The notes under the pieces were generated by a model. The model saw nothing but the letters and a program-made list of their open reading frames with translations, searched no databases and was not told where the DNA came from. Shown here piece after piece: positions 23,569-49,529 of a DNA stretch of 64,000 bases (the stretch's first letter is position 1; each line of letters starts with the position of its first letter). Origin of the DNA: Saccharothrix sp. ALI-22-I (lineage in GTDB: Bacteria; Actinomycetota; Actinomycetes; Mycobacteriales; Pseudonocardiaceae). Where the stretch lies: positions 1 through 64,000 of the forward strand of contig NZ_MTQP01000069.1 of assembly GCF_001984175.1 (NCBI RefSeq). Direction: 5' to 3'. A program made the position numbers and the translations under genes.

Positions 23569-23587
23569 CGTCGTGTACGGTCATGGC

Positions 23588-24178
23588 ATGGCACGACGGT
23601 TCCGGCAGCAGGTCGACGACGAGATCCTCGACCGCGCGGCCGCGCTCTTCGCCCAGCACGGGTTCGCCCAGACGTCGCTGAAATCCCTGGCCGACGCCGC
23701 CGGGCTGTCCAAGGCGGGTCTGCTGCACCACTACCCCAGCAAGGAAGCCCTCTTCGAGGCCGCTCAGGAAGCGGGCCGTGAACGGGGCAGGTTGTTGCTC
23801 GACCAGCTGAACGACCTGCCGCCCGGTCAGGAACGGGATCGGCGGGCGTTGGAGCTGCTGACCGACCTCGCGCTGGACCGGCCGGGGTGGGTGGCGCTGG
23901 CGTTCCGCTCGTTCACCGCGGCCGATGCCGACGACACGACCGATGAGCAGTTCCTCTTCGTCTCGGAGATGTTCGCCGTCGACCCCACCGGCTCCGAACC
24001 GGAACGGCTCGTGCGCGTCGCCGGCGCGCTGAGCGCGATGGCCGTGCTGAGCCTGGCCGCCAATCGCAAGGGCGAGAAGACCACCTGGCGGCCGCACATC
24101 ATCGCAACCTGTTTCGACGCGCTCGGCCATCGCAGGCCCGACGCCTCTTCGTCACGTTCCCACCAGGTGGAGGCCTGA
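23588..24178 (+). CDS. TetR-family regulator of the MMPL transporter
   Basis: A 196-residue TetR repressor with the N-terminal helix-turn-helix FAQTSLKSLADAAGLSKAGL and LHHYPSKEALFEA. It is five bases upstream of the MMPL gene and 19 bp downstream of a perfect tandem operator, so it most likely controls this two-gene operon and is released by the pump's substrate. ATG 23588 (ARRFRQQVDDEILDRAAALF) is the family-consistent start; an earlier start at 23573 would lie at the edge of the operator. Confidence 0.92.
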   Translation: MARRFRQQVDDEILDRAAALFAQHGFAQTSLKSLADAAGLSKAGLLHHYPSKEALFEAAQEAGRERGRLLLDQLNDLPPGQERDRRALELLTDLALDRPGWVALAFRSFTAADADDTTDEQFLFVSEMFAVDPTGSEPERLVRVAGALSAMAVLSLAANRKGEKTTWRPHIIATCFDALGHRRPDASSSRSHQVEA

Positions 24179-28408: not shown

Positions 28409-29038
28409 TCAGCGCAGGAGCAGGCGGAGGACGCCTTCGGCTTTCTCGATGTTCGGTTCCTGGCCGGTGATGAGGTTGAGGTACGTGTACGACTCGATGA
28501 TCCGCACGATGACGTACGCGACCTCGTTCAGGTCCGCGGGCAGCGACATCCGGCCCGCGTCGGTCTCCTCCTGGAGGATCTGCCGGAACGCCTCGATCAG
28601 CCGGGGCTGGAAGCCGGTGTCGTGCCTGGTCATCAGGCGCATCGCCAGTTCACCCTCGGTGGCGATCCAGTGCTTCATCCCAGCGTTGTCCAGGACGCGT
28701 TCCAGGAACCCCACGGCGATCCGGACCACCCGTTCCGACCCCGTCTCCCGGACCTCCCGGTTCAGCTCGCCGATCGTGAACTCGGTCAGCGACCACGTCA
28801 CCTCGACCAGCAGTTGGTCGCGCGAGCCGACCCACCGGTAGAGGGTGACGCGGCTGATCTCCAACTGCTCGGCCAGCACGCTCATGTCGATGCGCTGTTG
28901 GCGCAGGAAGTTGCGCTTGGCCTGGCGGAGGGCGTCCACGGGCGTGGGTCGGGTGCGCTTCTTCAGCGCGGCGAGGTCCTGCTGCAACTTCGTCGGACCG
29001 CGGGCGTCCGACCCGCCCACAGGAGACATGGCTGTCAT
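28409..29038 (-). CDS. TetR-family regulator, QsdR type
   Basis: A 209-residue regulator. The helix-turn-helix is in RIDMSVLAEQLEISRVTLYR followed by WVGSRDQLLVEVTWSLTEF, and the C-terminal ligand domain ITGQEPNIEKAEGVLRLLLR matches the QsdR group. The start codon at 29038 overlaps the stop of the MFS gene (29035) by 4 bp, so it is the last gene of the leftward unit FAAL, esterase, MFS, regulator and probably controls that unit. Confidence 0.87.
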   Translation of the reverse strand: MTAMSPVGGSDARGPTKLQQDLAALKKRTRPTPVDALRQAKRNFLRQQRIDMSVLAEQLEISRVTLYRWVGSRDQLLVEVTWSLTEFTIGELNREVRETGSERVVRIAVGFLERVLDNAGMKHWIATEGELAMRLMTRHDTGFQPRLIEAFRQILQEETDAGRMSLPADLNEVAYVIVRIIESYTYLNLITGQEPNIEKAEGVLRLLLR

Positions 29039-30492
29039 GGTCGCACAGCCCGGCCCGTTGGCTGTCGGGTGATCTTGTCCGCGCGGGCGGCGGACAGGGT
29101 GAGTACCAGCGCCACGACCACCGCGAGCACGGCCACCAGCACACCGGCGCGGTAGGCGTGGGCCAGTGCCTCCGACTGCGGCTCACCGTAGGAGGCGGAG
29201 GCGGAGGTGACGGCGAACGTGCTGCCGACGGCGGCGACGCCGAGCGCGCCGGCCAGCTCACGGGCAGCGGTGATCGCACCCGAGGCCACGCCGGCGAACC
29301 GGTCCGCCACCGAGTCCAGCACCGCCGTGGTCAACGGGGTGGTGAGCGCCGAGCCGAACCCGGCCAACGCCAGGCAGGCCAGCAGTCCCCCGGCGTGCGC
29401 GCGGTCCGCGAGCCAGACGATCGCGAACAACGCCACCGCGACCAGAGCCAGCCCGAGGCCTGAGACGTGCCACGGGCCGATCCGCCGCACCAACGGCGCC
29501 ACGACCGGCGTCCCCACCACCACGGCCAGCGCGATGGGCACGAAGAACAGGCCGCTGCCCGCCGGGGTGAGCCCGAGGACCCGTTCCAGGTACGGCGGGC
29601 TGACGAACAGCAGCCCGGTGATCGCGACGCTCCACAACCCCTGGGCCAGGGCACCGACCACGAACACCCGCCGCCCGATCACCGCACGCGGCAGCAACGG
29701 GTGCGCGGTCCGCCGTTCGTGCAGGACGAACACCAGCGACGCCGCCACCGCCACCACGACCAGCACGGGCGGACCCGTGTCGAGCAGCAGGGCCATGAAG
29801 GCGAACATCGCCACCGACAGGGCCGTGGTTCCGACCACGGTCAGCCGCGTCCTCGTGCCCGGCCCGCCCGGCCCGCCCAGTCCGCCCGGTCGCAGCGTCA
29901 CGGCCGCCAGCACGAGCGTGACCAGGCAGCACGGCACCGCACCCAGGAAGATCCACCGCCAGTGCGCGAACTCGGACAACGCACCGCCCAACGCCGGCCC
30001 GATCGCCAACGCGGCGGCCAACGCGGCCGTCCACACCGCGATCCCGACCGGACGGTGCCGCGGGTGCAGGTCGGTGCGCAGCAACGCGAGTCCGGTCGGC
30101 ACCAGCAGGGCCGCCGCGGCGCCCTGACCCGCCCGCCACAACGCCAACGCCACACCCGACCCGGCGGTGCCGCACCCCAGTGAGGTGACGGCGAACGCGG
30201 CCAACCCGACCAGCAGCACCCGCCGCGAGCCGAACCGGTCCCCGAGCGCGCCCGCCGTGATCAACAGGCCCGCGAACACGAGCATGTAGCTGACCACGAT
30301 CCACTGCAGGCCGGTCGTGGACAGGCCCAGGTCCGCGCCGATCGTCGGCAGCGCCACCATCAGGATGCTGTTGTCCAGTGCGGTGACGAACCCGGCGAAC
30401 CCGGCGACGAGCACCGTCGGCAAAGGTCGCCGCACCGCCGGGTCCGCTCCGTCAGGTCCCACCGCACCGGGTCCCACCGCACCGGGTTCCAC
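29035..30492 (-). CDS. MFS exporter in the lipid/polyketide locus
   Basis: A DHA2-type major-facilitator protein of up to 485 residues with 14 predicted helices: SILMVALPTIGADLGLSTTG, ALGDRFGSRRVLLVGLAAFA (motif A) and IGPALGGALSEFAHWRWIFL (motif C). The frame opens with a GTG at 30492 directly against the upstream gene, preceded by tandem EPGAVGPGAVGP repeats that look non-functional; a GTG about 20 codons later, at RRPLPTVLVAG, is a plausible alternative. It likely exports the product of the neighbouring acyl-AMP ligase and PKS, or gives resistance to it; this is inferred from operon position. Confidence 0.85.
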   Translation of the reverse strand: MEPGAVGPGAVGPDGADPAVRRPLPTVLVAGFAGFVTALDNSILMVALPTIGADLGLSTTGLQWIVVSYMLVFAGLLITAGALGDRFGSRRVLLVGLAAFAVTSLGCGTAGSGVALALWRAGQGAAAALLVPTGLALLRTDLHPRHRPVGIAVWTAALAAALAIGPALGGALSEFAHWRWIFLGAVPCCLVTLVLAAVTLRPGGLGGPGGPGTRTRLTVVGTTALSVAMFAFMALLLDTGPPVLVVVAVAASLVFVLHERRTAHPLLPRAVIGRRVFVVGALAQGLWSVAITGLLFVSPPYLERVLGLTPAGSGLFFVPIALAVVVGTPVVAPLVRRIGPWHVSGLGLALVAVALFAIVWLADRAHAGGLLACLALAGFGSALTTPLTTAVLDSVADRFAGVASGAITAARELAGALGVAAVGSTFAVTSASASYGEPQSEALAHAYRAGVLVAVLAVVVALVLTLSAARADKITRQPTGRAVRP

Positions 30493-30493
30493 G

Positions 30494-31456
30494 TCAGCCC
30501 GGCACGCCGAGCGCGGTCATCAACTGCGGCCAGGAGCGGCGCAGTTCGCGCTGCCAGTACGGCCAGGTGTGGGTGCCGTCGCCGTAGGCGTTGACGGTGA
30601 TCGGGATGTTCAGCAAGCGCATCCGGAGGACGAAGTCGGGCGAGGTGTTGCCGACGATCCGTTCGTTGGCGTCGTAGTCGAACCCGGGGTCGAGCGGCCC
30701 GGTGAACCCGTTGCCGTAGGACATGTACAACGACGTCCCGCGCAGTCCGGAGGCCAGTTCCTTCGGGTTGTTGGCCCGCCAGACGCTCGCCTGGAAATCG
30801 TCGTCGCCCCACAGCGCGTCCGCGGACATGCCTTCGCGCAGCACGGTCGCCCCCACGTACTGCGGCACACCCACGAACTGGGTGGACAGGATGCCGCTGT
30901 ACGAGGCCGCCGCCTTGAAGTAGCCCGGTCGCTTCGCCGCGTACTTGAAGGCGCCCGTGCCGCCGGCGGACAGACCGGCGATGGCCCGGCTGGTGCCGGC
31001 GCGGTAGCCGCGTTCGAGCAGCTGCACCAGTTCGGTCATGTGGAAGGTCTCCCACCCGGGCGTGCCGCCGCGTCCGCCGTTCCACCAGTCCGAGTACCAG
31101 CCGGCCCGGCCGCCGTCGGGCATGGCGATCAGCACGTCGCTGGACGCGCTCAGCTGCTCGACGTCGGTCTCCCTGGTCCACGAGGTGTAGTCGTCGCCGC
31201 AACCCTGGAGCAGGAACAGCACCGGCCAGGTGCGGGTCGCGGTGGGTGACCAGCCGGGTGGCGTGAGCAGCCGCACGGGGACGTTGCCGCCGATGGCGGG
31301 TGAGTTGATGGTGAGGTCGTAGGTGCGGTCGTCGAGGCGGGTCTGCTTCACCACGGTCGCGCCGTTGTCGGCCACGACCGCGACGGCGGGCGGCGCGGGC
31401 ACGACGATCGACACCACCAACGCGGCGACCACGGCAAGGGGTGATCTGAGGGACAT
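30494..31456 (-). CDS. Secreted esterase, antigen-85/mycolyltransferase-like
   Basis: A 320-residue exported alpha/beta hydrolase. A signal peptide (residues 1-25, LRSPLAVVAALVVSIVVPAP) precedes RLLTPPGWSPTATRTWPVLF, LQGCGDDYTSWTRETDVEQL, the nucleophile elbow AIAGLSAGGTGAFKYA and the histidine region YGDGTHTWPYWQRELRRSWP, all as in the esterase D/antigen 85 family that moves acyl groups onto trehalose or arabinan in mycolata. ATG 31456 has AGGAG eight bases upstream. It lies between a fatty-acyl-AMP ligase and an exporter, so extracellular transfer or release of the PKS-made acyl chain is a reasonable guess. Confidence 0.85.
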   Translation of the reverse strand: MSLRSPLAVVAALVVSIVVPAPPAVAVVADNGATVVKQTRLDDRTYDLTINSPAIGGNVPVRLLTPPGWSPTATRTWPVLFLLQGCGDDYTSWTRETDVEQLSASSDVLIAMPDGGRAGWYSDWWNGGRGGTPGWETFHMTELVQLLERGYRAGTSRAIAGLSAGGTGAFKYAAKRPGYFKAAASYSGILSTQFVGVPQYVGATVLREGMSADALWGDDDFQASVWRANNPKELASGLRGTSLYMSYGNGFTGPLDPGFDYDANERIVGNTSPDFVLRMRLLNIPITVNAYGDGTHTWPYWQRELRRSWPQLMTALGVPG

Positions 31457-31485
31457 GACGTGCTCCTGACGGGTCCGAGGCCGGG

Positions 31486-33225
31486 TCACGCGGTCACGGC
31501 GAAGCGGCCTTCGAGGTACTGCTCACGGCACAGGGAGCGGGACAGCTTGCCGCTCGACGTGCGCGGCACCGTGCCCGGTTCGGCCAGCACGACGTCGTGC
31601 ACGCGCAGGTCGTGGTGGGTGGACACGGCCGCCCGGACCAGGGCGCCGAGCCGGGTGAGGTCGATGTCCTCGCGGGGTGTGCGGGGGCTGCGTTCCGCGA
31701 CGACGACCAGCCTTTCCTGGTCGTTCCGGTCGACGGCGAAGGCGGCGATGTGGCCGTCGCGCAGGGCGCGGTCGACCGACTCCACGGTGGCCTCGATGTC
31801 CTGCGGGTAGTGGTTGCGGCCGTCCACGATGATGGTGTCCTTGATCCGGCTGACCACGTAGAACTGGCCCTCGTGCCGCACGCCCAGGTCTCCGGTGCGC
31901 AGCCAGCCGTCGCGCGGCAGCCCGGCCGGCTGGTCGGTGACGGTGGTGCCGAACACGCCGAGGTCCCGTTCGCCGGACCAGTAGCCGGGCGAGACGTTGG
32001 GGCCGGTCACCCGGATCTCGCCGACCCGTCCGTCGGGCAGCGGCTCGTCCGAGTCCGGGTCCACGATCAGCACGTGCTGGTCGACGGGTGACCCGCAGCC
32101 GACCAGCGCGGTGCTCGGTTGCCCGGCGACCGGCGCGATGGCGTGGCCGGCGGCGAGCGCGGCGCGGTCGAAGGACGTGGTCACCGGCGCGCCACCGGCG
32201 GCGGTGACGTAGACGGTGGCCTCGGCCAGGCCGTAGGACGGGCGCTGGACGTCCGCGCCCAGGCCGTGCGGCGCAAAGGCCTCCTGGAACCGGGCCACGG
32301 TGCCGGCGCGCACCGGTTCGCTGCCGTTGGCCAACGTGAGCACACCGGTCAGGTCCAAAGTGGACCGCTTGGCCTCGGGCACGCGGCGCACGCACAGGTC
32401 GTAGGCGAAGTTCGGCGCCGCGCTGATCACCGCCGACCGGCCGCTCATCGCTTCGAGCCAGCGGATCGGGCTGTAGAGGAAGGCGAGCGGGTCCATGAAC
32501 ACCGTTTCCGACCCGAACACCAGTGGCGAACCCATGCCCAGGACCAGGCCCATGTCGTGGAACAGGGGCAGCCAGCTGACCGGGCTGACCTCGTCCACCA
32601 CGCCGTAGGCGCGCAGGGCCTGACTTGCGTTGATCATGAGGTTCCGGTGGGTCACGACGACACCGGCGGGTTGCCGGGTGGAGCCCGAGGTGTACTGGAG
32701 GTAGGCGGGCTGATCGGCCTGCGTCGCGGCGATGGTTGCGGTCGGCGGGGCCGCCTCCAGGTCCTCGACCGCCAGCACGTCGAACGGCCCGGCCAGCTCG
32801 TTCCGGGTGGCCGGGAGCAGGGCCGTCGTGGTGAGCACGGCTCTCGGCGTGCAGTCGCCGAGCACGCCGACGACCCGGTCGCGGTGCCCGGCGCCGTCGA
32901 CCGGGAAGAGCGGCACCGCGAGCACTCCGGCGTAGAGGCAGCCGAAGAACGCCGTCACGTAGTGGAGTCCTTGCGGCAGCAGCAGAACGGCGCGGTCACC
33001 GGGTTCGGCACGGGCGCGCAGACCGGCGGCGATGGCCCGGGCCCGAGTGTCCACTTCGGACCAGGTGAGCGTGGTGGCGCGACCGCGGTTGTCCTCCGCG
33101 TAGTCCACGAAGGTGAAGGCGGGCTGGTCGGGCTTCTCCCGCGCCCAGCGCAGGACGGCCGCGGTGACCGTGCCCCGCCCGACTTCGGACACCGGTACCC
33201 AGCCGGGCGACATCGTGACAGTCAT
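31486..33225 (-). CDS. Fatty-acyl-AMP ligase (FadD32-like)
   Basis: A 579-residue adenylate-forming enzyme that activates a fatty acid as acyl-AMP for loading on a carrier domain. Motifs are YTSGSTRQPAGVVVTHRN (phosphate loop), SWLPLFHDMGLVLGMGSPLV (typical of FAALs), YGLAEATVYVTA, RTGDLGVRHEGQFYVVSRIK and the lysine of PRTSSGKLSR near the C-terminus. Length and the FAAL-type HDMGL sequence separate it from CoA ligases. ATG 33225 has GAGGAGG five bases upstream. Divergent from the PKS, whose N-terminal ACP is the obvious acceptor, as FadD32 serves Pks13. Confidence 0.92.
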   Translation of the reverse strand: MTVTMSPGWVPVSEVGRGTVTAAVLRWAREKPDQPAFTFVDYAEDNRGRATTLTWSEVDTRARAIAAGLRARAEPGDRAVLLLPQGLHYVTAFFGCLYAGVLAVPLFPVDGAGHRDRVVGVLGDCTPRAVLTTTALLPATRNELAGPFDVLAVEDLEAAPPTATIAATQADQPAYLQYTSGSTRQPAGVVVTHRNLMINASQALRAYGVVDEVSPVSWLPLFHDMGLVLGMGSPLVFGSETVFMDPLAFLYSPIRWLEAMSGRSAVISAAPNFAYDLCVRRVPEAKRSTLDLTGVLTLANGSEPVRAGTVARFQEAFAPHGLGADVQRPSYGLAEATVYVTAAGGAPVTTSFDRAALAAGHAIAPVAGQPSTALVGCGSPVDQHVLIVDPDSDEPLPDGRVGEIRVTGPNVSPGYWSGERDLGVFGTTVTDQPAGLPRDGWLRTGDLGVRHEGQFYVVSRIKDTIIVDGRNHYPQDIEATVESVDRALRDGHIAAFAVDRNDQERLVVVAERSPRTPREDIDLTRLGALVRAAVSTHHDLRVHDVVLAEPGTVPRTSSGKLSRSLCREQYLEGRFAVTA

Positions 33226-33594
33226 CCGAACCTCCTCGTCGAGGTGAGAAGCGGACTGCTCGGAACGTGACGCGCAGCTAGGCCACGTCACATCGCATAA
33301 CGGAACAGAACGTCCACGTGTAACAACGCGAGGACGCTACTCATGCATCGGAGAGTGTGTCAATCGGCGCTTTAAGTAACCGATACAGTGCCAATACACG
33401 TCCGAACGGCCTATTGCCGAGCGCGAACCGGGCCGCAATCATCAGGTTTCCGTGGAATTACACCATCGACAAAGTGTTACATTCGTCGTTCTGCGAACCA
33501 GGTTCGTGGAACGCCGCACCAGCCGCCCGGGCCGTGTCCGCCGCCCGCGTCACCCGCGCGTTCCACCGTCCCTGCTCACCGCCCGAAGGTGCCC
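33226..33594. promoter_or_regulatory. Divergent promoter region of the FAAL and PKS units
   Basis: This 369-bp stretch has no gene and is clearly more AT-rich than its surroundings between about 33290 and 33500, as expected for promoters of both leftward and rightward units. I cannot assign -35/-10 pairs with confidence and I see no long perfect dyad. The PKS ribosome-binding site GAAGGTG is at 33584-33590. Confidence 0.5.
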
Positions 33595-36500
33595 ATGACC
33601 GGTCACACCCCGTCGACCGAAGCCGGCCTCAGAGACTGGTTGGTAGCCAACATCGCCGACACCGTCGGCCTCGCGCCCGAGCACGTCGACGTCGATCGCC
33701 CCCTGGTCGAACTGGGGCTGTCGTCCCGCGACGCCGTGGTGCTGGCCGGTGCGCTCGGCGAGGTCACCGGCCTGGACCTGCCGGTCAGCGCGCTGTGGCA
33801 ACACCCGACCGTCGCCCGACTCGCGCGCCACCTGTCCGACCGGACCTCGGGCGCGTCCGACCAGACCGAGGTGCCTGTCCGCAGTGGACTCAGTGCGCCC
33901 GGGCCTGATCGCGCCGACGCTGGTGAGGCCATCGCCGTGATCGGCCTGGGCTGCCGGCTCCCCGGTGGTGTCCACGGGCCGGACGAGTTCTGGTCCCTGC
34001 TGCGCGACGGGCGTGACGCCGTGCGGGCGGCGCCGCTGGAACGCTGGGACGCGATGCCCGACGGAGCGCCCCGGTGGGGCGGTTTCCTGGACGACATCAC
34101 CGGTTTCGACGCCGAGTTCTTCGGGATCACGCCGCACGAGGCGGCGAGCATGGACCCGCAGCAGCGGCTGGTGCTGGAGGTCGTGCAGGAGTCGTTGCAG
34201 CACGCGGCCGTTTCCTCGGACTCGTTGCGCGGCACGGCGACCGGCGTGTTCGTCGGCATCTCGGCCGGTGAGTACGGCGCGGCGTCCGCCGTCGACCCGG
34301 CCCGGATGAGCCCGTGGACGGCCACCGGCGGTGCGCTGAGCATCGCCGCCAACCGGGTGTCGTACCTGCTGGACCTGCGCGGACCCAGTATGGCCGTGGA
34401 CACCGCGTGCTCGTCGTCGCTGGTGGCGGTGCACCAGGCGTGCCAGAGCCTGCGTTCGGGCGAGAGCGACACCGCGCTGGTGGCCGGGGTGAACCTGCTG
34501 CTGACGCCCGCGCTCACGGTGGGCTTCCACCGGGCCGGGCTGTTGTCGGAGGACGGCCGCTGCAAGCCGTTCGACGCCTCGGCCGACGGCATCGCCCGCG
34601 CCGAGGGCTGCGCCGCCGTGGTGCTCAAGCGGCTGTCCGACGCCCGGCGCGACGGTGACCGCGTGCTGGCCGTGATCCGCGGCAGCGCGGTGAACTCCGA
34701 CGGTCGCTCCAACGGTCTGATGGCGCCCAACCCCCGGGCCCAAGCCGAACTCGTCCGCCGCGCCTACCGCGACGCGGGCGTGGACCCGGCGCTGGTGGAC
34801 TACGTCGAGGCGCACGGCACCGGCACGCTGCTGGGCGACCCGATCGAGGCAGGCGCCCTCGGCGAGGTGCTGGCCCGCGACCGTGAACCCGACCGCCCGC
34901 TGCTGATCGGCTCGGTCAAGTCCAACATCGGCCACACCGAATCGGCCGCAGGCCTGGTCGGCCTGGTCAAGACCGTACTGGCCGTCCAACACGGCAAGAT
35001 CCCACCCAGCCTGCACTTCACCGAACCCAACCCGCACATCGACTTCACCGGCCTGCGGGTGGTCACCGAACCCGTGGTGTGGCCGCGCTACTCGGGCCGC
35101 GTCACGGCCGGCATCTCGTCGTTCGGGTTCGGCGGCACCAATGCGCACGTGGTCCTGGAGGAGCCCCCCGCCACCGAACGTGCCGGTGTCAGCGACGACG
35201 CCATGCACGTGATGGTGCTGTCCGGCGCATCCGACGACCGCATCCGGCGACACGCCGAGGTGGTCGCGGACTGGTTGGACGACAACGACAACCCACTCGG
35301 CGATGTGGCGGCCACCCTGGCCCGCCGAAGTGGAGCCGACCGCGTGCGGGCCGCGGTCGTCGGCCGTGACCGCGCCGAGGTCATCGACCGCCTGCGCGCC
35401 CTCGCCACAGGGCAGCGCACACCGGGCGTGGTCCCCACACGCCCGGTTCGGCGTGGCACGGACCGGGCAGGCACGGATCGACAGCTGGTGTGGGTGTTCT
35501 CCGGTTACGGGTCCGGCCGACCGGGGATGGCTCGTGGGTTGTTGGACGCCGAGCCTGCGTTCGCCGCTGCGGTGGATGAGGTGGACGAGGTGTTGCGCGG
35601 GCACAGTGCGGTGTCGGTGCGGGACCTTCTGGTTGATCCGCCTGAGGCGATGGACATGGAGCAGGGGCAGATCGCGCTGTTCGGTGTGCAGGTCGGACTG
35701 GCTGCGTTGTGGCGGTCGTACGGCGTGCGGCCGGCGGCGGTGATCGGGCAGTCGTCCGGTGAGGTGGCGGCGGCGGTGGTCGGCGGGGCGTTGAGCCTGG
35801 CTGACGGTGTGCGGGTGGCCGCTACCCGGGCTCGGTTGTTGGCGCGGATCGACGCGGTGGGGTCGGGTGCGATGGCGGCGGTGGAGCTGGCCCGGTCCGA
35901 GTTCGACGCGCTGGCCTACGACCTGCCGGATCTGGCGGTTGCGGTCTATGCCGCGCCTCGGCGTCAAACGGTGGCTGGGCCGCGGGCGCAGATCGAGACG
36001 CTGGTTCGGCGAACGGAGGCGGCGGACCGCCTGGCGACTGTGCTGCCGCTGCGGACCAGTGGGCACACCGCCGCGGTCGAGCCGGTGCTCGCTGAGTTGC
36101 GGGCGGAGCTGCGGGGCGTGCGGCGGCGGGAGGGCGGGATTCCCTGCTACAGCACGGTCACCGACGGGCCGCCGTCGTTCGACGCCGAGTACTGGGCGCA
36201 CCACATGCGTCGGGCGGTCCGGTTCACGCAGGCTGTGGCTGCGGCCTTCGCGGATGGCCATGACGGGTTCCTGGAGATCTCGCCGCACACGATCGCGTTG
36301 TCGGCGATCGAGGAGACGGCGCGGGACTCGGACTTGCCGGATCTGCTGCTGTGCGGGTCGTTGCGCCGGGACCAGGACGATACGACGACGTTCCACACCA
36401 ACCGGGCGTTGCTCGCGCTCGACGGTTCGGCTCCACTGCCCGACGCGGCGATCACGGATGTGCCTGCGGTGCCGTGGCAGCACGTGCGGCACTGGCTCGG

Positions 36501-39500
36501 GCCGACACCGGCGGCTGTGGGGCATCCGCTGCTCGGCGCACATGCGGAGGTTCCGGGTGGGGTCACCCACGTGTGGCACACCGATGTGGGGCTCAAGGCG
36601 TTGCCCTGGTTGTCCGACCACCGGGTGCACGACGTGCCGGTGTTGCCGGGTGCGGCGTACACGGAGATCGCCTTGGCTGCGGCGGTGGAAGTGTTGGGGG
36701 TGGCGGCGCGGGACCTGGACGTCACCGAGGTGGTGTTCGAAGGGCTGCTGGCGTTGGACGACCAGGTCGCGCTCAGCACTGTCGCCGAGGACGACCGGCG
36801 CGGCGGTGTGCGGGTGGAGATCCACTCCAAATCCGCCGGCGGGCGGTGGACCCGGCACGCCACGGCGTCCGTCGTGCCCGCCTCCCCCGGTGAGCTGCGA
36901 GCCCCGGTCGTGCGGGACGGGTTGGCGGAGTTGCCGCTGTACGAGCGGGTGGCGGAGAGCGGGCTGCACTACGGGCCCGCGTTCCGGGGCGTCCGGTCCG
37001 TGCTCGCCGGTGACGGTCTGGCCGTGGGTGCGGTCGCCGTGACGGAGGAGGAACTGTCGGCGCACCTGCCGGTGACGTTGTTCGACTCGTGCCTCCAGGT
37101 GCTGGCCGCCGCGGCGTCCGAACCGCTGGGGGTGCACGTCGGGCGCACGTACCTGCCGGTGGGTATCGGATCGGTGCGGGTGCACGGTGATCCGCGTCAG
37201 GGCGTGCGGTGCGAGGCCGCGGTGCTCGCGGTCGACGAACGGGATGACGAACTGGTCGGCTCGGTGTGGCTCCACGACGACGCCGATCGGCTTCTGGTGG
37301 AGGCGACCAGCGTCCGGGTGCGGGTGGTGGACGGGTCGGCGGTGCCCGTGCCGTTGTCCGAGCTCGCGTTCGAGACGCGGTGGGAACGTCTGGCGCTGCC
37401 GCCGTCCTCCCCCGGTAGTCATGACTGGCTGCTGCTCACCGACCACGCCGCCCACCCGTTCGTGGAGCGGTTCGTCGAGCTGGCGGATGCGGTTGGTGAT
37501 CGGGTGCGGGTTGGTACGACGGACTCGGTGCGTGGTGTCCAGCGTGTGAGTGGAGTTGTGCTTGTGCCCGGCGAAATCGGTGGGCCGGGGATGGTCGAGG
37601 CGGCCGAGCGGGAGGTGGCTGCGGCAGCACGGGTTGCTGCCGAGGTGGCCGCGTGGCAGGACCCGCCGCGCCTGTGGATCGCCACGCACGAGGCCACGGC
37701 GGTGGGGGGCGGTGAGCCGGGATCGCCTGGTCAGGCCGCGTTGCGGGCGTTGGTGCGGGTGCTCGCCTTCGAACACCCACGGCTGCGGGCGTCCCTGGTG
37801 GACCTGCCTCGGTCCGGTGACGCCGAGGCGTTGCTGGCCGAATTGCGCGCGGATCAGGCCGACGACGAAGTGGCGTGGCGGGGACGTGACCGGCACGTGG
37901 CGCGGCTGCGGCCCGCCGCGATCTCACCGCCGGTGACCGGCGCGGTCGTCCTGCCCGGCTCCTACCTGATCACCGGTGGTCTGGGTGGGCTCGGTCTGGT
38001 GGTGGCGCACTGGTTGGCCGGGCTCGGTGCGACGCGGATCGTGCTCAACGGGCGGCGCGCGGCGACCGCCGACAGTGCGGCGGAGCTGGCGAAGATCCAG
38101 GCCACCGGCACCGAGGTGGTCGTGGTGACCGGCGATATCGCCGAGCCGGGTGTGGCCGAACGGGTGGTGGCGGCGGCAGTGGCCGGGGAACGACGGCTGC
38201 GCGGTGTCGTCCACGCGGCCGGTGCCCTGGTGGACCTGCCCGTCGAGCGGGTGGACGCGGAGAGCGTGCGGGCGGCGTTCGGGCCGAAGGCGCGGGGCGC
38301 GTGGCGGCTGCACGAGGCGACCGAGGGGCTCGACCTGGACTGGTGGGTGAACTTCTCGTCCGCTGCGGCCATGCTCGGGTCACCCGGTCAGACGCCGTAT
38401 GCGGCGGCCAACGCGTGGCTCGACGCGTTCACGGCTTGGCGGCGGTCCCGGGGACTGGTCGCGACGACCGTCGACTTCGGGGCGTGGGGGCAGGTCGGTC
38501 TCGCCCGCGACACCGACAACCCGCTGTTGCGGCCGATCTCGCCGGCGGAGGGGATTCAGGCGCTGGAGGCGATCCTGCTCGCCGATCGGCCGGACACCGG
38601 CGTCATCCGGCTGGATCACCAGGCTGCGGTGGATCTGTTCCCCGAGTTGGCGCGGCGGCCGTTCTTCTCCGCTGTGCTGGTCGCGCCATCGGCGGTGGAG
38701 GAGGACTGGCCGGGGCCGGAGGCGCTGCGGGACGCGCCGGATGCGGCGGCGCTGGTCCTGCGCAGGTTGCGCGCGGTGGTCGGGCGGGTCATGGGGTATG
38801 CCGATGACCAGTTGAGCACGACCGTCGCGTTGGCCGATCTCGGGTTGGACTCGCTGATGGCGATGCGTGCTCGCAACGCGGTGGAGCACGACCTGGGCGT
38901 GCAGTTGCCCATGCCGCTGCTGCTGCGGGGGGCGACGCTCGATGACGTGGCGCGGCACGTCACGACGACGTTGGGTGTGGCGGCCGACGACGTGCCGGTG
39001 GAGACCGGGTTCGTCGGGCGGCAGGTTGCGGCGACGTCGGGGGTGGCCGGCGGTGTGTCGGTGGAGACCGGGTTCGTGGCGCCGCGTGATCCGACCGAGC
39101 GGTGGCTGGCCGGGTTGTGGGCGGAGGCTCTTGGCCGCTCGCGGATCGACGTCACGGAGGACTTCTTTGCCGTCGGTGGTGACGCGGAGCGCGCGGAAGT
39201 GCTGTTCGCGGCGATCAGGCGACGGTTGGGCGCGGACGTGCCCACCGGGTTGATGGCGGTGCCGACGGTGGAGGGTATGGCCGACGAGCTGCGGTCGGCG
39301 TTCGAGGGGGTCGATGGTCCGGTCCGGGTGCTGCGCGGGTCGGGTGGGCGTCCGCCGCTGCACCTGTTCCACCCGGCGGGTGGGCCGACGAGTGTGTACC
39401 AGCCGTTGGTGGAGCTGTTGGGTGACGATCAGCCTTGCTACGGCTACGAGCGGCTGGACGACGTGGACGGTCTGACCGCGAAGGCGGCCCGGTACATCGA

Positions 39501-40161
39501 GCTGATCCGGGAGATCCAGCCGACCGGACCGTACCGGCTGGGTGGATGGTCGTTCGGCGGCTGTCTGGCACACGAGATCGCCTGCCGGCTCCACGCGGCC
39601 GGTGAACGGGTGGACGCCATCGTGATGATCGACTCCGTCCGGCCGCTGCCGTCCCCGGATGTGCCGCCCGCCGACGTGCTGCGGCACCGGTTCGGCCGCT
39701 ACGTGGAGCACATCCAGCGGACGCACGGCGTCACGGTGGAGCTGCCGTGGGAGGAGCTGGCCGGGTTGGACGACGAAGGCCAGATCGACGCGGTGATCGC
39801 CGCCGTGACGGAGGCGGGCGTGCGGATGAGCGCCGGCGCGCTGCACCACCAGCGAACGTCCTATCTGGATGCGAGGACGGCAGAACGGTTCCAGCCCAAG
39901 CACTTCCCTGGTCAAGTGGTCTTCTACCGGGCGACGGTGCGGGAACACCTGACGACCGTGCTGGACCCGCGCTACCTGCGCACGCTGGACGACGACGATC
40001 TGGGCTGGTCGGACACCGTGGACCGGCTGGACATCGTCCCCGTGCCCGGGGACCACCTGTCCATGATCGACCCGCCGAACGTGGAGGTCCTGGCCGCGCA
40101 CCTCGACGCGCTGCTCGCCGACCTCCCCGTGCCTCGACCGGACGGGGCGAGCGGGCGATGA
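33595..40161 (+). CDS. Type I polyketide synthase, ACP-KS-AT-DH-KR-ACP-(inactive carrier)-TE
   Basis: A 2188-residue single-module synthase. Domains: N-terminal ACP (GLSSRDAV, Ser44, a Pks13-type motif); KS with Cys272 in TACSSSLV, His407 in EAHGTGT, His447 in NIGHTES; AT with Ser720 in GQSSGE; DH with His1009 (DHRVHDVPVLP) and Asp1164 (FDSCLQ); KR with GGLGGLG from 1461 and Ser1588/Tyr1602; ACP with Ser1753 in LGLDSLMAM; a second carrier-like domain near 1830-1900 where FFAVGGDAE has Ala1864 instead of the attachment serine; and a thioesterase with Ser1986 in GWSFGG. No ER is seen. ATG 33595 follows GAAGGTG. It likely takes an acyl chain from the divergent FAAL, extends and reduces it once or iteratively and releases it through the TE. 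Confidence 0.93.
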   Translation: MTGHTPSTEAGLRDWLVANIADTVGLAPEHVDVDRPLVELGLSSRDAVVLAGALGEVTGLDLPVSALWQHPTVARLARHLSDRTSGASDQTEVPVRSGLSAPGPDRADAGEAIAVIGLGCRLPGGVHGPDEFWSLLRDGRDAVRAAPLERWDAMPDGAPRWGGFLDDITGFDAEFFGITPHEAASMDPQQRLVLEVVQESLQHAAVSSDSLRGTATGVFVGISAGEYGAASAVDPARMSPWTATGGALSIAANRVSYLLDLRGPSMAVDTACSSSLVAVHQACQSLRSGESDTALVAGVNLLLTPALTVGFHRAGLLSEDGRCKPFDASADGIARAEGCAAVVLKRLSDARRDGDRVLAVIRGSAVNSDGRSNGLMAPNPRAQAELVRRAYRDAGVDPALVDYVEAHGTGTLLGDPIEAGALGEVLARDREPDRPLLIGSVKSNIGHTESAAGLVGLVKTVLAVQHGKIPPSLHFTEPNPHIDFTGLRVVTEPVVWPRYSGRVTAGISSFGFGGTNAHVVLEEPPATERAGVSDDAMHVMVLSGASDDRIRRHAEVVADWLDDNDNPLGDVAATLARRSGADRVRAAVVGRDRAEVIDRLRALATGQRTPGVVPTRPVRRGTDRAGTDRQLVWVFSGYGSGRPGMARGLLDAEPAFAAAVDEVDEVLRGHSAVSVRDLLVDPPEAMDMEQGQIALFGVQVGLAALWRSYGVRPAAVIGQSSGEVAAAVVGGALSLADGVRVAATRARLLARIDAVGSGAMAAVELARSEFDALAYDLPDLAVAVYAAPRRQTVAGPRAQIETLVRRTEAADRLATVLPLRTSGHTAAVEPVLAELRAELRGVRRREGGIPCYSTVTDGPPSFDAEYWAHHMRRAVRFTQAVAAAFADGHDGFLEISPHTIALSAIEETARDSDLPDLLLCGSLRRDQDDTTTFHTNRALLALDGSAPLPDAAITDVPAVPWQHVRHWLGPTPAAVGHPLLGAHAEVPGGVTHVWHTDVGLKALPWLSDHRVHDVPVLPGAAYTEIALAAAVEVLGVAARDLDVTEVVFEGLLALDDQVALSTVAEDDRRGGVRVEIHSKSAGGRWTRHATASVVPASPGELRAPVVRDGLAELPLYERVAESGLHYGPAFRGVRSVLAGDGLAVGAVAVTEEELSAHLPVTLFDSCLQVLAAAASEPLGVHVGRTYLPVGIGSVRVHGDPRQGVRCEAAVLAVDERDDELVGSVWLHDDADRLLVEATSVRVRVVDGSAVPVPLSELAFETRWERLALPPSSPGSHDWLLLTDHAAHPFVERFVELADAVGDRVRVGTTDSVRGVQRVSGVVLVPGEIGGPGMVEAAEREVAAAARVAAEVAAWQDPPRLWIATHEATAVGGGEPGSPGQAALRALVRVLAFEHPRLRASLVDLPRSGDAEALLAELRADQADDEVAWRGRDRHVARLRPAAISPPVTGAVVLPGSYLITGGLGGLGLVVAHWLAGLGATRIVLNGRRAATADSAAELAKIQATGTEVVVVTGDIAEPGVAERVVAAAVAGERRLRGVVHAAGALVDLPVERVDAESVRAAFGPKARGAWRLHEATEGLDLDWWVNFSSAAAMLGSPGQTPYAAANAWLDAFTAWRRSRGLVATTVDFGAWGQVGLARDTDNPLLRPISPAEGIQALEAILLADRPDTGVIRLDHQAAVDLFPELARRPFFSAVLVAPSAVEEDWPGPEALRDAPDAAALVLRRLRAVVGRVMGYADDQLSTTVALADLGLDSLMAMRARNAVEHDLGVQLPMPLLLRGATLDDVARHVTTTLGVAADDVPVETGFVGRQVAATSGVAGGVSVETGFVAPRDPTERWLAGLWAEALGRSRIDVTEDFFAVGGDAERAEVLFAAIRRRLGADVPTGLMAVPTVEGMADELRSAFEGVDGPVRVLRGSGGRPPLHLFHPAGGPTSVYQPLVELLGDDQPCYGYERLDDVDGLTAKAARYIELIREIQPTGPYRLGGWSFGGCLAHEIACRLHAAGERVDAIVMIDSVRPLPSPDVPPADVLRHRFGRYVEHIQRTHGVTVELPWEELAGLDDEGQIDAVIAAVTEAGVRMSAGALHHQRTSYLDARTAERFQPKHFPGQVVFYRATVREHLTTVLDPRYLRTLDDDDLGWSDTVDRLDIVPVPGDHLSMIDPPNVEVLAAHLDALLADLPVPRPDGASGR

Positions 40162-40710: not shown

Positions 40711-40770
40711 CGTGACAAGCACGTCGAGCATCTTTGTCAATTGACTGCACTATTCACCGGAGGCTATTCA
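40700..40770 (+). promoter_or_regulatory. Probable promoter of the polyester-hydrolase-like gene
   Basis: TTGACT (40741-40746) and TATTCA (40765-40770) are separated by 18 bp. The -35 overlaps the palindrome GTCAATTGAC (40736-40745), and GCAGTCAAT (40700-40708) mirrors ATTGACTGC (40740-40748). CTATTCAC is also repeated (from 40750 and 40764). The dyads may be a regulator site. Confidence 0.5.
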
Positions 40771-40839
40771 CAGCATACAGCGACACCGCTAGTCTCCAAT
40801 TCCGGAGTCCCCTTTCAGCGTCGAAGGAGTTCAATTCCC

Positions 40840-41706
40840 GTGCGCCTCCAGAAATTCTCCCTGCCATTCTCCGTGGCCGCTGCGGCATTGACCGCGACCG
40901 CATTGTTCGTCTCACCGCAGGCGACAGCCGACCCGACCGCGTTCGCCGTGCACGGGCCGGATCCGACAGCGCAGTCCGTGCAGGCCCAACGCGGTCCGTA
41001 CGCCACCTCCCGGACGACCGTCTCGTCGGGTACCGGCTTCAACCGGGGCACCATCTACTACCCCACCACCACCAGCGAGGGCACGTTCAGCGCGGTGGCG
41101 GTCATCCCGGGCTTCACCGAGAGCGAGTCCACGATGTCGTGGTACGGCACCACGTTGTCCTCGCACGGGTTCGTGGTGTTCACCCTGGAGGCCGAGGGCG
41201 GGCTCGACTTCCCCGACGCCCGCGCCGACCAGCTGCTCGCGGCGCTGGACTACCTGGTGAACTCGTCGTCGGTGCGCGACCGGGTCGACCGCAACCGGCT
41301 CGGCGTGATGGGCCACTCGATGGGCGGCGGCGGCACGCTGGAGGCGGCGAACGAGCGCCCGTCGCTGCGGGCGGCGATCCCGCTGGCGGCGTGGCACAAC
41401 ACCAAGAACTTCCCGCAGGTGCAGGCCGCGACACTGGTCATCAGCGCCGAGGGTGACAGCGTGGCCTCGCCCGCCAGCCACTCGGAGCCGTTCTACCAGG
41501 GCCTGCGGTCGGCGGAGAAGGCGTATCTGGAGCTGAACAACGGCAACCACTTCACCACCAATTCCTACACGCCGACCGTCACCAAGTACGCGGTGTCGTG
41601 GCTGAAGCGGTTCCTGGACGACGACACCCGCTACAGCCAATTCCTGTGCCCGCCTCCGCCGCCGGACTCGAACATCAACGAATACCGCCACACCTGCCCG
41701 GTCTGA
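40840..41706 (+). CDS. Secreted cutinase / polyester (PET)-hydrolase homologue
   Basis: A 288-residue exported alpha/beta hydrolase of the dienelactone-hydrolase-like cutinase group (LCC, TfCut2). After a signal peptide (1-30) come RGPYATSRTTVSSGTGFNRG and IYYPTTTSEG, the nucleophile elbow GHSMGGGGTL, the aspartate loop VISAEGDSVASPASH, the histidine in NNGNHFTTNS and the C-terminal TKYAVSWLKRFLDDDTRYSQ FLC with a final paired cysteine. The Trp of the aromatic clamp is in AAWHNTKNF; the oxyanion-side residue is Phe (PGFTES) where LCC has Tyr. GTG 40840 has AAGGAG ten bases upstream. Natural substrate is probably cutin or another polyester. Confidence 0.88.
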   Translation: MRLQKFSLPFSVAAAALTATALFVSPQATADPTAFAVHGPDPTAQSVQAQRGPYATSRTTVSSGTGFNRGTIYYPTTTSEGTFSAVAVIPGFTESESTMSWYGTTLSSHGFVVFTLEAEGGLDFPDARADQLLAALDYLVNSSSVRDRVDRNRLGVMGHSMGGGGTLEAANERPSLRAAIPLAAWHNTKNFPQVQAATLVISAEGDSVASPASHSEPFYQGLRSAEKAYLELNNGNHFTTNSYTPTVTKYAVSWLKRFLDDDTRYSQFLCPPPPPDSNINEYRHTCPV

Positions 41707-41744
41707 TCGGACACGGTCTGATCGGGCCGACCGGTCCGATCACG

Positions 41745-41773
41745 CACGGGGCCGGATCTCCTCCGGCCCCGTG
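41745..41773 (+). terminator. Terminator after the polyester-hydrolase-like gene
   Basis: CACGGGGCCGG (41745-41755) pairs perfectly with CCGGCCCCGTG (41763-41773) across a 7-base loop, 39 bp after the stop. Confidence 0.8.
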
Positions 41774-41823
41774 TCGTGAGAACTCCGGAAAACTTCGAGA
41801 GAAAGTCTGAGAGAAGGCAGACG

Positions 41824-43266
41824 ATGACCCAGATCTTCCGACGATCCACCGCCGCCGTGGCGGTGGCGGTGTCAACGGTCGCCGCACTGGTGCTCCCGGT
41901 GCCGACCGCCTCCGCCGCCGCGCCGACGGCCGACGTGCCGACCGCCGCCGTGCCGACGCCGCAGGTGCGAGAGATACCGTCCACGGCGGGCCGGGGGTTC
42001 GCGGCCAGTGGCTCCCACGGCGTGCTCGACCTCGCCGGGCGCGGCTACCGCGAGCACGAGTACTTCATGTCCGGCACGGCGAGCACCTACCGGGCGGAAG
42101 GGCTCTGGACCGAGAACGGTCGGTGGCGCGCCGTCGTGGACGGGGCCGGTGTCGGGTACACCACCAGGATGGTGGTGGTGCGCCCGAACAACATGGCCGC
42201 GTTCAGCGGGACGGTGGTCGTCGAGTGGCTGAACGTGAGCTTCGGCGTTGATATCCCGGTGGATTTCTCCCAGTCGTATGAGTACTTCGCGCGTCAGGGC
42301 ATCGTCTACGTCGGCCTGACGACCCAGGGGGTTGGTGCGCAGGCGCTGACCCAGATCGACCCGGCGCGGTACGCGGGGGTGTCGATTCCCGACGACGCGG
42401 CGTCCTACGACATCATGTCCCAAGCGGCGCAAGCGATCCGGAGCGCACCGGCGTTGCTCGGCGGGGCCACTGCGCGCACTGTGCTGGCCACTGGGCACTC
42501 CCAGTCGGCGTTCCGGCTGACCACGTATGCGAACGCGATCCAGCCGCTGCACGGTGTTTACGACGGGATCATGCTGCACGGCAGGGCGGGCGGTGCGGCG
42601 CCGATCAACGGCGACTCGTTCCTGACGATTACCGCCCGGATTCGTGAGGACCTGTCGGTGCCGGTCTTCACGCTCCAGGCCGAGACCGACATCGTCGCCT
42701 CTTCCTCGGTGCGCCAGGACACTGCCCGGGTGCGCACGTGGGAGGTCGCGGGTACCGCTCACGCGGACCAGTACGGCGTGGATCTGTACAACGCGGCCAA
42801 CGCTCGTGACAAGGCGATCAACGACGGCGCGCCTACCGTGTGCGATGACCCGATCAACTCGATGACGTTCCGGTATGCGCAGAACGCGGCGTACGACCAC
42901 CTGATCCGGTGGGCCCGAGGTGGTGCCGCTCCACCTACCGCGACGCCGATCCGCACACTGCTCGGTGTGATTGTGGTTCGGGATCAGGACAACAACGCTC
43001 AGGGTGGGGTGCGGCTGCCGGATCTGGACGTGCCGGTGGCGACGTACGGGCCGAACAACAGTGGTGGGAACGTTGCTGCTGCGTGCATGTTGTTGGGGCG
43101 GACCACTCCGTTCACTCCGGCGCGTATCGGCGAGTTGTACCCAGACCACGCCACGTATGTCGCTCGTTTTACGGCGGCTGCGGATCGGGCTGTGCGGGCG
43201 GGGGTCATGCTTCCGGTCGATCGCAACGAGGCCGTGGCGCGAGCTGCTGCGGCGCCTGTGCCGTGA
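41824..43266 (+). CDS. Secreted alpha/beta-hydrolase-domain protein
   Basis: A 480-residue exported protein with a signal peptide (about 1-32) and the large 'alpha/beta hydrolase domain' family layout: HEYFMSGTASTYRAEG, VVEWLNVSFGVDIPVDFSQS, the elbow ATGHSQSAFRLTTYANAI with a GHSQS nucleophile motif, an Asp in VFTLQAETDIVASSS and a His in GTAHADQYG. Substrate unknown; the family includes poorly studied esterases. ATG 41824 is preceded by AGAAGG. It follows the polyester-hydrolase-like gene after a terminator and may serve related ester breakdown outside the cell. Confidence 0.8.
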   Translation: MTQIFRRSTAAVAVAVSTVAALVLPVPTASAAAPTADVPTAAVPTPQVREIPSTAGRGFAASGSHGVLDLAGRGYREHEYFMSGTASTYRAEGLWTENGRWRAVVDGAGVGYTTRMVVVRPNNMAAFSGTVVVEWLNVSFGVDIPVDFSQSYEYFARQGIVYVGLTTQGVGAQALTQIDPARYAGVSIPDDAASYDIMSQAAQAIRSAPALLGGATARTVLATGHSQSAFRLTTYANAIQPLHGVYDGIMLHGRAGGAAPINGDSFLTITARIREDLSVPVFTLQAETDIVASSSVRQDTARVRTWEVAGTAHADQYGVDLYNAANARDKAINDGAPTVCDDPINSMTFRYAQNAAYDHLIRWARGGAAPPTATPIRTLLGVIVVRDQDNNAQGGVRLPDLDVPVATYGPNNSGGNVAAACMLLGRTTPFTPARIGELYPDHATYVARFTAAADRAVRAGVMLPVDRNEAVARAAAAPVP

Positions 43267-45797: not shown

Positions 45798-46412
45798 GCG
45801 GACGGCTCCTTCCCCAGCACCGTATTGCCAGCCAGTGCGATGCGGACCTTATCGAAGGGTCGGCCGCAAGTTTCATCGAGATACCCTCGGCGCGCCAACC
45901 CCTTGCACCTTGCACTCCCAGTGCGCCGGGATCGAGGGCTCGGACGATGTCGCCGACGTAAAAGTTTCGAAAGTGCAGGCGAATCGTTTCGACACCCATC
46001 GTCACCCCGGTACCGCCGAACGGCGGCCGGCGCCCCGTGTCGAGCATCATGATCAGCCCGACGTCGCCGTTTCCGCACACTGCGACCGTGACGGGGAGCA
46101 TCGCGGACGGTCGTCGAGATGAGCGCGACGGCCGCCCGGCTGCTCATGGTTCTCGCCGCCGGCGACACACCGACACCGTCCCGGATCGAGTTGGCGACGA
46201 TGCTCGTCGTGCGTGACAGCACCGCACCACCGGCCTGAACGCGCGGGGGGCGTCACACCGGGTATTGAGACGGTGTGCGTCCCTCTGGGCCTTGTCAACC
46301 GAACTGTTTCGCTCAATACTCCTAAATGTTTCAGCGCCGGAACACGAGTAGGGCACAGGGGATTCCCCCGGTGCCTCCCACATCCATGCCTCGTTCCGGA
46401 GGACTGACACAC
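45798..46412. promoter_or_regulatory. 615-bp divergent intergenic region (sigma fusion / CE1 esterase)
   Basis: No convincing gene. On the minus strand AAACTT (45962-45967) and CGTC (45943-45946), 15 bp apart, resemble an ECF promoter and could allow the sigma fusion to drive itself. On the plus side GTATTGAG (46262-46269) and CTCAATAC (46312-46319) are inverted repeats, and CGAACTGTTTCG (46300-46311) is a short dyad of the kind bound by LacI regulators; both precede the esterase gene. A 39-codon plus frame at 46119-46238 (MSATAARLLMVLAAGD) could be a remnant but has no recognisable family. Confidence 0.4.
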
Positions 46413-47735: not shown

Positions 47736-47792
47736 GCCCGCGACCACCGCAATCCGGTGCATCCCTGGCCGGCGGCTTTTCCGTCGGCCGAA

Positions 47793-47808
47793 TTGTTAAC
47801 GCTAACAA
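47793..47808. promoter_or_regulatory. LacI-type operator upstream of the GH62 gene
   Basis: TTGTTAACGCTAACAA has perfect 6-bp arms TTGTTA/TAACAA around ACGC and is close to the GTTAGCGCTAAC dyads of actinobacterial LacI regulators of polysaccharide genes. It lies 49 bp before the start codon. Confidence 0.65.
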
Positions 47809-47856
47809 CGCTTTCGCTTTCGCGTAACCACCCACCACATGGAGAGGAGTCCTGGG

Positions 47857-49311: not shown

Positions 49312-49479
49312 CCCCGTGAGGCCCCGGGCGGCGCGAGGCGGGACGTCGGCACCACGTCCCCCTTGCGTTGCCCGGTGTGCTCCCCCACCGGGGCCGGTAC
49401 CCGGACACTCCGCCCACCGCACCGCCTGTGCCGCAAGGTATGCGGACTCCGGTGCGTCCGTCCGGCCCCGGTGGAGACC

Positions 49480-49529
49480 GTCGTGTTCCCGTCGTGTTCC
49501 CGTCCTGTTCCCGTCGTGTTCCCGTCCTG
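49480..49529. repeat. Four 11-bp tandem repeats
   Basis: GTCGTGTTCCC is repeated four times (third copy GTCCTGTTCCC) from 49480 to 49523, plus a partial fifth. It sits in the GH62-GH30 intergenic region about 50 bp before the GH30 start. Function unknown. Confidence 0.8.

Follow-up and report, generated by a model that had tools for sequence, protein, structure and literature searches.

Why should an actinomycete that presumably makes no mycolic acids carry a gene cluster resembling the machinery of mycolic acid condensation and transfer? The question is raised by a five-gene locus (positions 28409-40161) in a 64,000-nucleotide stretch of the genome of Saccharothrix sp. ALI-22-I (10.3 Mb in 69 contigs), hereafter called the window. 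The locus encodes a fatty acyl-AMP ligase (FAAL), a type I polyketide synthase (PKS), a secreted-looking esterase of the antigen 85 (Ag85)/PS1 mycolyltransferase fold, an exporter of the major facilitator superfamily (MFS), and a TetR-family regulator (Table 1). Mycolic acids are the defining feature of a group of bacteria with medical importance. In a passage of PMC9900942, the fadD32-pks13-accD4 locus is stated to be exclusive to mycolate producers. Our data indicate that the window locus is probably a Pks13-family module for lipid synthesis and transfer, with reductive domains that Pks13 itself has lost, the mycolate Pks13 set being its descendant or sister. The two working-looking domains lost in the mycolic-acid version suggest where the mycolate pathway came from.

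Much of what a preliminary description had read from the letters of the window is borne out. All five genes lie together at the coordinates it gave, and Pfam and NCBIfam assign each of them to a family. The regulator, exporter, esterase, and FAAL genes run head to tail on the minus strand, adjacent genes overlapping by 4 bases or standing 1 base apart, and the PKS gene diverges from them on the plus strand. As described, the PKS has a Pks13-type N-terminal acyl carrier protein domain (ACP1, with GLSSRDAV) and a C-terminal thioesterase (TE, with GWSFGG), and the extra dehydratase (DH) and ketoreductase (KR) are both present with catalytic motifs. The Pfam scan of the PKS also returned a ketosynthase (KS), an acyltransferase (AT), and three carrier stretches in all, with no enoylreductase (ER) domain. 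In the third carrier stretch (psiACP), GGDA replaces the phosphopantetheine serine motif, so that no serine is available for the arm. The listed start of the protein precedes the first homologous residue, the N-terminal ACP running from residue 83, and the true start is likely Met70, near 33595.

How far does the likeness to the mycolate system go? As in the Pks13/FadD32/AccD4/Fbp set, a FAAL partner accompanies a PKS whose ACP1 bears the SRDAV signature, whose KS is kin to that of Pks13, and whose C-terminal part holds a serine-less psiACP and a TE; an Ag85-fold esterase adjoins, and many relatives add an AccD4-like AccD. The Gln, Ser, and Arg of the AT are also shared: Gln773, Ser801, and Arg826, named as residues of the Pks13 AT in a passage of PMC5944431, have counterparts at equal spacing by a hand count on the alignment. 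The window PKS differs in its DH and KR with catalytic motifs, whereas Pks13 has a pseudo-DH (a section of PMC11649247) and reduction of its product falls to a separate protein, CmrA (a section of PMC9900942). The top match of the PKS in the Protein Data Bank (PDB) is Pks13 (9f48, 9.5e-285). It scores 1345.7 bits against the NCBIfam equivalog model mycolic_Pks13 (NF040607; cut-off 2100), and the FAAL scores 484.8 bits against the FadD32 model (cut-off 975). These sub-cut-off scores and the extra domains exclude strict orthology with Pks13 and FadD32. The models that score highest with the ligase are those of FAALs (561, 516, and 485 bits), the best CoA-ligase model giving 318 bits, and all of these scores are under the respective cut-offs. 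From the mycolate trio it is the carboxylase AccD4 that is absent, and not a desaturase, as the preliminary description had it. Not one of 72 whole-genome matches reaches the Pks13 cut-off (in the control, 1 of 14 genomes does), and the C-terminal family of the Emb arabinosyltransferases has no match in the genome, while the control Corynebacterium glutamicum does match. This gene content supports the earlier description of the organism as presumably mycolate-free; presumably it has no arabinan either. Judged by its sequence, the window locus is not a mycolate locus: the system would work like a reducing Pks13 system and is kin to Pks13, outside the Pks13 equivalog.

The kinship was examined in trees of the KS domain (85 rows) and of KS, AT, and TE combined (50 rows and 62 rows), with five to eight mycolate Pks13 proteins included. 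In all three trees, Pks13 and the window family form one clade, apart from PKSs resembling mycocerosic acid synthase (MAS) or PpsA (in the 62-row tree with starred support of 100 in the SH-like approximate likelihood ratio test, SH-aLRT), and Pks13 is nested inside the family. Its nearest rows in the larger tree are L071 and the Actinomycetospora locus L113 (starred support of 96, long branches); in the smaller trees they are others. The alternative that Pks13 lies outside the rest was rejected (p 0.0066) in the approximately unbiased (AU) test on the first set, where the tested group also held L066, L079, L105, and L110, in which no TE was seen. Kinship of the window family to Pks13 is firmly supported, and nesting of Pks13 in the family is only the option that the trees favour. 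The KS phylogeny had been proposed as the check on the locus; it makes the PKS a relative of Pks13 but not an orthologue, and no other characterised pathway emerged in the searches made. The carboxylases follow suit: AccDs beside family PKSs group with AccD4 in one clade (94/92), from which the AccD5/PccB type stands apart (99/99, the second value starred), and a single clade of the non-mycolate AccDs was not rejected (p 0.133).

Among the domains of this family are homologues of two parts of Pks13 to which no function is ascribed; one of these domains, the DH, is still intact here. The third ACP of Pks13 is serine-less and is left without an assigned function in passages of PMC9900942 and PMC9210659. 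In profile-profile comparison it matches the psiACP of the family with a probability of 98.2% (E 6.2e-14), as against 0.4% for the reversed control and none of 200 column shuffles as high. The other piece is the long linker between AT and ACP2 of Pks13, whose profile matches the N-terminal half of the family DH. With 8 Pks13 sequences the match has E 2e-8, a value that none of 200 column shuffles attained (E 0.024 with the DH reversed). With 38 rows (35 distinct genes, L220, L221, and L242 repeating L200-L202) it has E 9.4e-10 and a score of 67.5; no shuffle out of 200 scored above 22.1, and the reversed DH scored 24.6 (E 0.0075). The catalytic His of the DH lies in a segment that falls in a gap of this match. 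Of 81 genomes sampled within the family to which these Pks13 loci belong, 78 are matched by a query of linker plus ACP2, the DH-like part being spanned in all but one. An AlphaFold2 (AF2) model of the linker (mean predicted local distance difference test score, pLDDT, 70.6; 86-95 over residues 51-130) has a MAS-like DH as its top structural match (Z 12.1), tied with other hot-dog proteins at 11.1-11.4, within 1; the predicted hot-dog fold is thus supported, and the closest family is not fixed by the structural match. A 2024 cryo-EM paper had already named the Pks13 pseudo-DH as DH*, from AlphaFold and DALI (a section of PMC11649247), and the terms evolution, remnant, relic, and ancestor lead to no discussion of its origin in the text of that paper. 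What is new here is the homology of the pseudo-DH to the intact family DH.

No KR remnant was seen in the Pks13 linker (probability 0.1-0.2%). The linkers of the 15 family members without DH and KR show no DH remnant as a set, with the exception of L113 (E 1.5e-8 at Z = 10000). This Actinomycetospora locus (9919-17995) encodes a Pks13-like PKS that lacks KR and in which half of a DH survives in decayed form; genes for a short-chain dehydrogenase and an Ag85-like esterase follow. The arrangement resembles an intermediate on the way to that of mycolate loci. A single loss of DH and KR for all members without them was not rejected (p 0.23).

Is the window locus an isolated case? The congener G013 has all five genes at 85-95% identity, and six other congeners have the MFS, esterase, FAAL, and PKS genes at about 54-73%, the TetR gene being seen in one of the six. 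FAAL orthologues with at least 60% identity occur in 7 of 24 congeners, each beside a PKS and an esterase. This conservation indicates that the clustering is not due to chance. MFS orthologues at the congeners' loci are 56-91% identical, and TetR orthologues adjoin the locus in L058 (95%) and L065 (70%), with none seen in the stretches of other congeners. Beyond the genus, a named-genome search with the FAAL alignment yielded 79 loci, from the best 80 of 580. These loci and 40 stretches of relatives were scanned with domain profiles from close relatives; genes were called with a G+C-based caller and stop-to-stop frames, which missed some AccD genes that the profile recovered, and the apparent duplicates L059, L213, and L214 were set aside. 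The resulting family counts are conditional on FAAL similarity and on a stretch length of about 20 kb.

An N-ACP PKS of the window type adjoins the FAAL in 62 non-mycolate loci, at least three of which (L058, L065, and L110) are cut at the end of a stretch or contig. Both DH and KR were called by profile in 46 of the 62, neither in 15, and DH without KR in one. The fetched stretch holds an Ag85/PS1-like esterase in 51 cases and an AccD in 30; the latter is akin to AccD4 and completes the accD4-pks13-fadD32-fbp set. The hosts include Amycolatopsis, Crossiella, Saccharopolyspora, Actinokineospora, Actinosynnema, Actinomycetospora, Frankia, Actinacidiphila, and Streptomyces, with one Solirubrobacteraceae metagenome-assembled genome (MAG); to our knowledge, these genera are generally held to be without mycolic acids. 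Loci homologous to the mycolate set occur across actinomycetes generally held to be mycolate-free, and many of them include genes for an AccD4-like carboxylase and an Ag85-like transferase. The locus had been taken to mirror mycolate condensation and transfer: the likeness stands, but it is neither isolated nor a mere mirror, since it belongs to a widespread family of Pks13 kin with AccD4-like carboxylases beside many members. An open-access full-text literature search, with subscription papers mostly outside its scope, found no paper on this locus.

The genome itself holds a second esterase (71% identity) with its own TetR gene on contig 60 (241059-241988; L250:9056-10132). Both flanks of this site match the congeners' full PKS-FAAL-esterase-MFS locus, with FAAL and PKS missing, and the gap lies between the esterase and a neighbour gene read as a subtilisin-like protease. 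This remnant indicates that such loci are gained and lost in the genus, and that esterase and regulator can outlive the synthase.

What would the synthase extend its chain with? In a set of 69 loci, the AT motif GA[GSA]H is found in all 38 with a nearby AccD, including 8 Pks13s; in 30 readable loci without AccD, the motif is a different one in 27 (TSGH in the window) and GAGH in three. Fifteen entries of this set were set by hand, L211 was unreadable, and the cut locus L110 and the apparent duplicates were left out. The link between AccD and AT motif is carried by three independent contrasts on starred branches (six on all branches), none of the three opposite, and with kinship counted it is not significant. 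As a lead, it suggests that AccD-bearing members, like Pks13, may draw on carboxylated fatty acids, whose place in the branch of the window may have been taken by another, perhaps shorter, extender. The extender of the window is uncertain because no AccD4-like carboxylase lies beside the locus or was found in the genome, and because its AT motif is not GA[GSA]H. The relatives' AccDs are of the acyl-CoA carboxylase beta-subunit kind (the group of 5inf, PccB, AccD5, and AccD4), whereas the window locus is without one. In the PDB, that of L082 matches best the putative carboxyl transferase 5inf at 809 bits, then PccB at 781, AccD5 at 677, and the 9t97 chain, taken as AccD4 from its label, at 527. 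We take 5inf to belong to the stambomycin extender pathway. For comparison, YASH and HAFH are given as the methylmalonyl and malonyl AT signatures in a passage of PMC6164871, and VASH as the ethylmalonyl signature in a passage of PMC10646177.

The esterase, previously called an antigen-85-like hydrolase, is indeed structurally nearest to mycolyltransferases. Its sequence matches in the PDB are led by PS1 (6sx4, 9.7e-45), Cmt1 (1e-27), and Ag85B (4e-18). The top structural match of its AF2 model (pLDDT 88.8) is C. glutamicum mycoloyltransferase A (6sx4; VIA Z 35.2), with Ag85A at 34.2; mycolyltransferases or their homologue MPT51 make up 22 of the best 24 structural rows, including all of the best 20, many of them being Ag85C variants. 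Ag85-like proteins from mycolate loci have counterparts of Ser174, Glu276, and His307 at the aligned positions, and in a 23-sequence alignment Ser174 and His307 are invariant and Glu276 nearly so. The N-terminus, as read from the sequence, is hydrophobic. It is plausible that the esterase works like a mycolyltransferase and transfers an acyl group.

Our reading of the locus as a Pks13-family module starts from what the sequences show, namely the genes and domains present, their catalytic motifs, the relationship to Pks13 in the tree, the psiACP, and the pseudo-DH, and the conserved company of FAAL and esterase; from these we infer every substrate, the single condensation, and the steps of export and transfer. 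The FAAL would adenylate a fatty acid and load it onto ACP1, which would hand the fatty acyl group to the KS. The AT would charge ACP2 with a carboxylated (alkylmalonyl-type) extender, and a single Claisen condensation would give an alpha-alkyl beta-ketoacyl chain, to be converted by the KR (and by the DH, if active on the substrate) to a beta-hydroxy or 2-alkyl-2-enoyl chain. The TE would then release the chain to water or a polyol, the MFS protein would export the product, and the secreted-looking esterase would transfer the acyl group to an outside acceptor, with the TetR protein controlling the locus. The mycolate Pks13-FadD32-AccD4-Fbp set would be a specialised descendant or sister of this module, with its DH decayed and its KR gone. 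A bolder proposal, on which our judgement is almost evenly divided, is that mycolic acid condensation arose outside the mycolate bacteria, by remodelling of a module widespread among actinobacteria (FAAL, reducing PKS, AccD4-like carboxylase, and Ag85-like transferase), and that bacteria described as mycolate-free still use this module to make and transfer alpha-branched envelope lipids resembling mycolates. In that case Pks13 would preserve fossils of the module in its pseudo-dehydratase and psiACP, and the window locus would represent a branch in which DH and KR still work and the extender has changed. The spread of the homologous loci allows the origin of mycolic acids to be tested with harmless strains, and it predicts an undescribed class of branched, possibly envelope-bound lipids in common antibiotic producers.

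Several results weigh against the module reading. In the tree, Pks13 sits on a long branch, and the alternative placing it outside the rest was not rejected in the larger set (AU p 0.156). Single-sequence hidden Markov model (HMM) searches pick up the DH remnant of Pks13 only weakly (E 0.018-4.9 at Z = 10000), and a Pfam scan of the Pks13 linker found no DH. Six of the 35 family DHs displayed have lost catalytic residues, so that a called DH may not always be active; the window DH keeps them. The FAAL tree does not join FadD32 specifically to the window FAAL, and the earlier label FadD32-type fails in the strict sense, on this tree and on the score given above; an ancestry for FadD32 was also sought in that tree, which gave no resolution. 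No AccD lies beside the locus in the stretch. A search of the genome with a relative's AccD (E 1e-30 or better) found eight AccD-like places, only of the AccD5/PccB type and more distant ones; six (L169-L174) were put in trees, where the best groups with the AccD5/PccB type and all six fall outside the AccD4 clade. Finally, the family esterases form their own side of the tree opposite Ag85/PS1 (10 mycolate-locus proteins, with starred support of 99, face 48 others in a tree rooted at its midpoint without an outgroup), a tributyrin esterase scores on par with Ag85A (1.8e-16 and 2.3e-16) and above Ag85C, and S-formylglutathione hydrolases reach Z 30.7 against the esterase model.

The grading of Ag85-fold proteins into plain esterases and the missing AccD4-like partner would both suit a different role, in which FAAL and PKS make a small bioactive lipid that the MFS protein exports under TetR regulation, the esterase hydrolysing or maturing it or protecting the producer, and kinship to Pks13 being a matter of ancestry only. 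A TetR gene with a DHA2-type MFS gene is a common setting for secreted metabolites, and the patchy occurrence of the locus in the genus fits as well. The window exporter scores 187 bits against the EmrB subfamily model, under its cut-off of 230. We consider such a secreted acyl-polyketide rather unlikely, for the esterase shares the stretch with FAAL and PKS across several families, and the proteins of known structure closest to it are two mycoloyltransferases, PS1 and Cmt1. Still less probable is an iterative PKS of the MAS kind, making methyl- or ethyl-branched or multi-cycle lipids and resembling Pks13 in ACP1, KS, and TE only. Residues 181-1513 do align with MAS at 752 bits, some family members have YASH or VASH in the AT, and the window's branch has no dedicated AccD. 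However, the window PKS lacks the ER, its AT motifs TSGH and GQS are not of the methylmalonyl type, and its KS groups with Pks13, away from MAS-like PKSs. As known systems, MAS and Pks2 share with the window PKS the KS-AT-DH...KR order, a similar DH motif, and a FAAL partner; the N-terminal ACP, psiACP, and TE of the window PKS are extra. The mycobacterial PpsA-type modules of L120, L121, L123, and L124, which we presume to be Pps, likewise have a FAAL followed by a PKS starting with an ACP, but they show no TE or DH among the profile hits, have several PKSs in a row, and fall outside the clade of Pks13 and the family. That the locus is decaying or silent, with no current product, is very improbable: the contig 60 site does keep only TetR and esterase genes where congeners have the full locus, yet here five open reading frames keep the catalytic motifs examined, and their orthologues in G013 are 85-95% identical.

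Table 1. Genes of the locus and domains of its PKS, in window positions
Feature	Positions	Strand	Assignment
TetR-family regulator (TetR_C_36)	28409..29038	-	Pfam PF18598 3.9e-29
MFS exporter, DHA2/EmrB-like	29035..30492	-	Pfam MFS_1 5.6e-47
Secreted-looking esterase, Ag85/PS1 mycolyltransferase fold, Ser174-Glu276-His307	30494..31489	-	PF00756
Fatty acyl-AMP ligase (FAAL)	31486..33291	-	NCBIfam PRK05850, 561 bits (cut-off 775)
Type I PKS, 2257 aa, ACP1-KS-AT-DH-KR-ACP2-psiACP-TE	33388..40161	+	Pfam domains
ACP1, N-terminal, Pks13-type GLSSRDAV signature	33634..33834	+	Pfam PP-binding aa 83-149, motif table
KS, catalytic Cys in VDTACSSSL	33925..35178	+	
AT, motifs GQSSGE and TSGH	35488..36432	+	
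DH, catalytic His (SDHRVHDVPVLP) and Asp (FDSCLQ)	36523..37335	+	
KR, NADPH motif TGGLGGLG, active-site Ser/Tyr/Asn	37957..38490	+	
ACP2 (GLDSL), approximate boundaries	38803..38973	+	
psiACP, serine-less, homologous to psiACP/ACP3 of Pks13, approximate boundaries	39064..39291	+	
TE (GWSFGG, D, H)	39355..40107	+	

Lipid transporters were also considered among the neighbours. MmpL3 serves mycolates, and the loci L068, L069, L078, L091, and L106 have MMPL-family transporters with 53-86% mutual identity. The window has an MMPL-family gene at 24184-26376, with a TetR gene (23573-24178) upstream, near the locus only here and in G013. It was rejected as a partner of the locus: it has 27-35% identity to the locus-linked MmpLs of seven relatives, and its orthologue (86%) accompanies the locus only in G013.

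Among the relatives, a contig labelled as a Bifidobacterium breve MAG (L140) is probably contamination, since its AccD4- and PpsA-like genes group with those of mycobacteria. A cutinase-like secreted protein, as read from the sequence, is encoded near eight loci (L091, L096, L098, L100, L103, L104, L115, and L122), seven of them Streptomyces-like; these neighbours are reminiscent of Rv3802c, which, we assume, adjoins Pks13. An R2-like ligand-binding oxidase gene lies just upstream of FAAL and PKS in L082 (L082:7512-8441; NCBIfam 549 bits, cut-off 286), and similar genes are found in L099 and L102. Directly downstream of the window PKS, the region 40741-43266 encodes a PET-hydrolase-like protein, with relatives near the loci of two congeners (L063 and L065), and an Abhydrolase_10 protein. 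Farther on, three successive CBM2 proteins at 46326-51380 (a PHB-type esterase, a GH62 protein, and a GH30-like protein) form a plant-polymer set.

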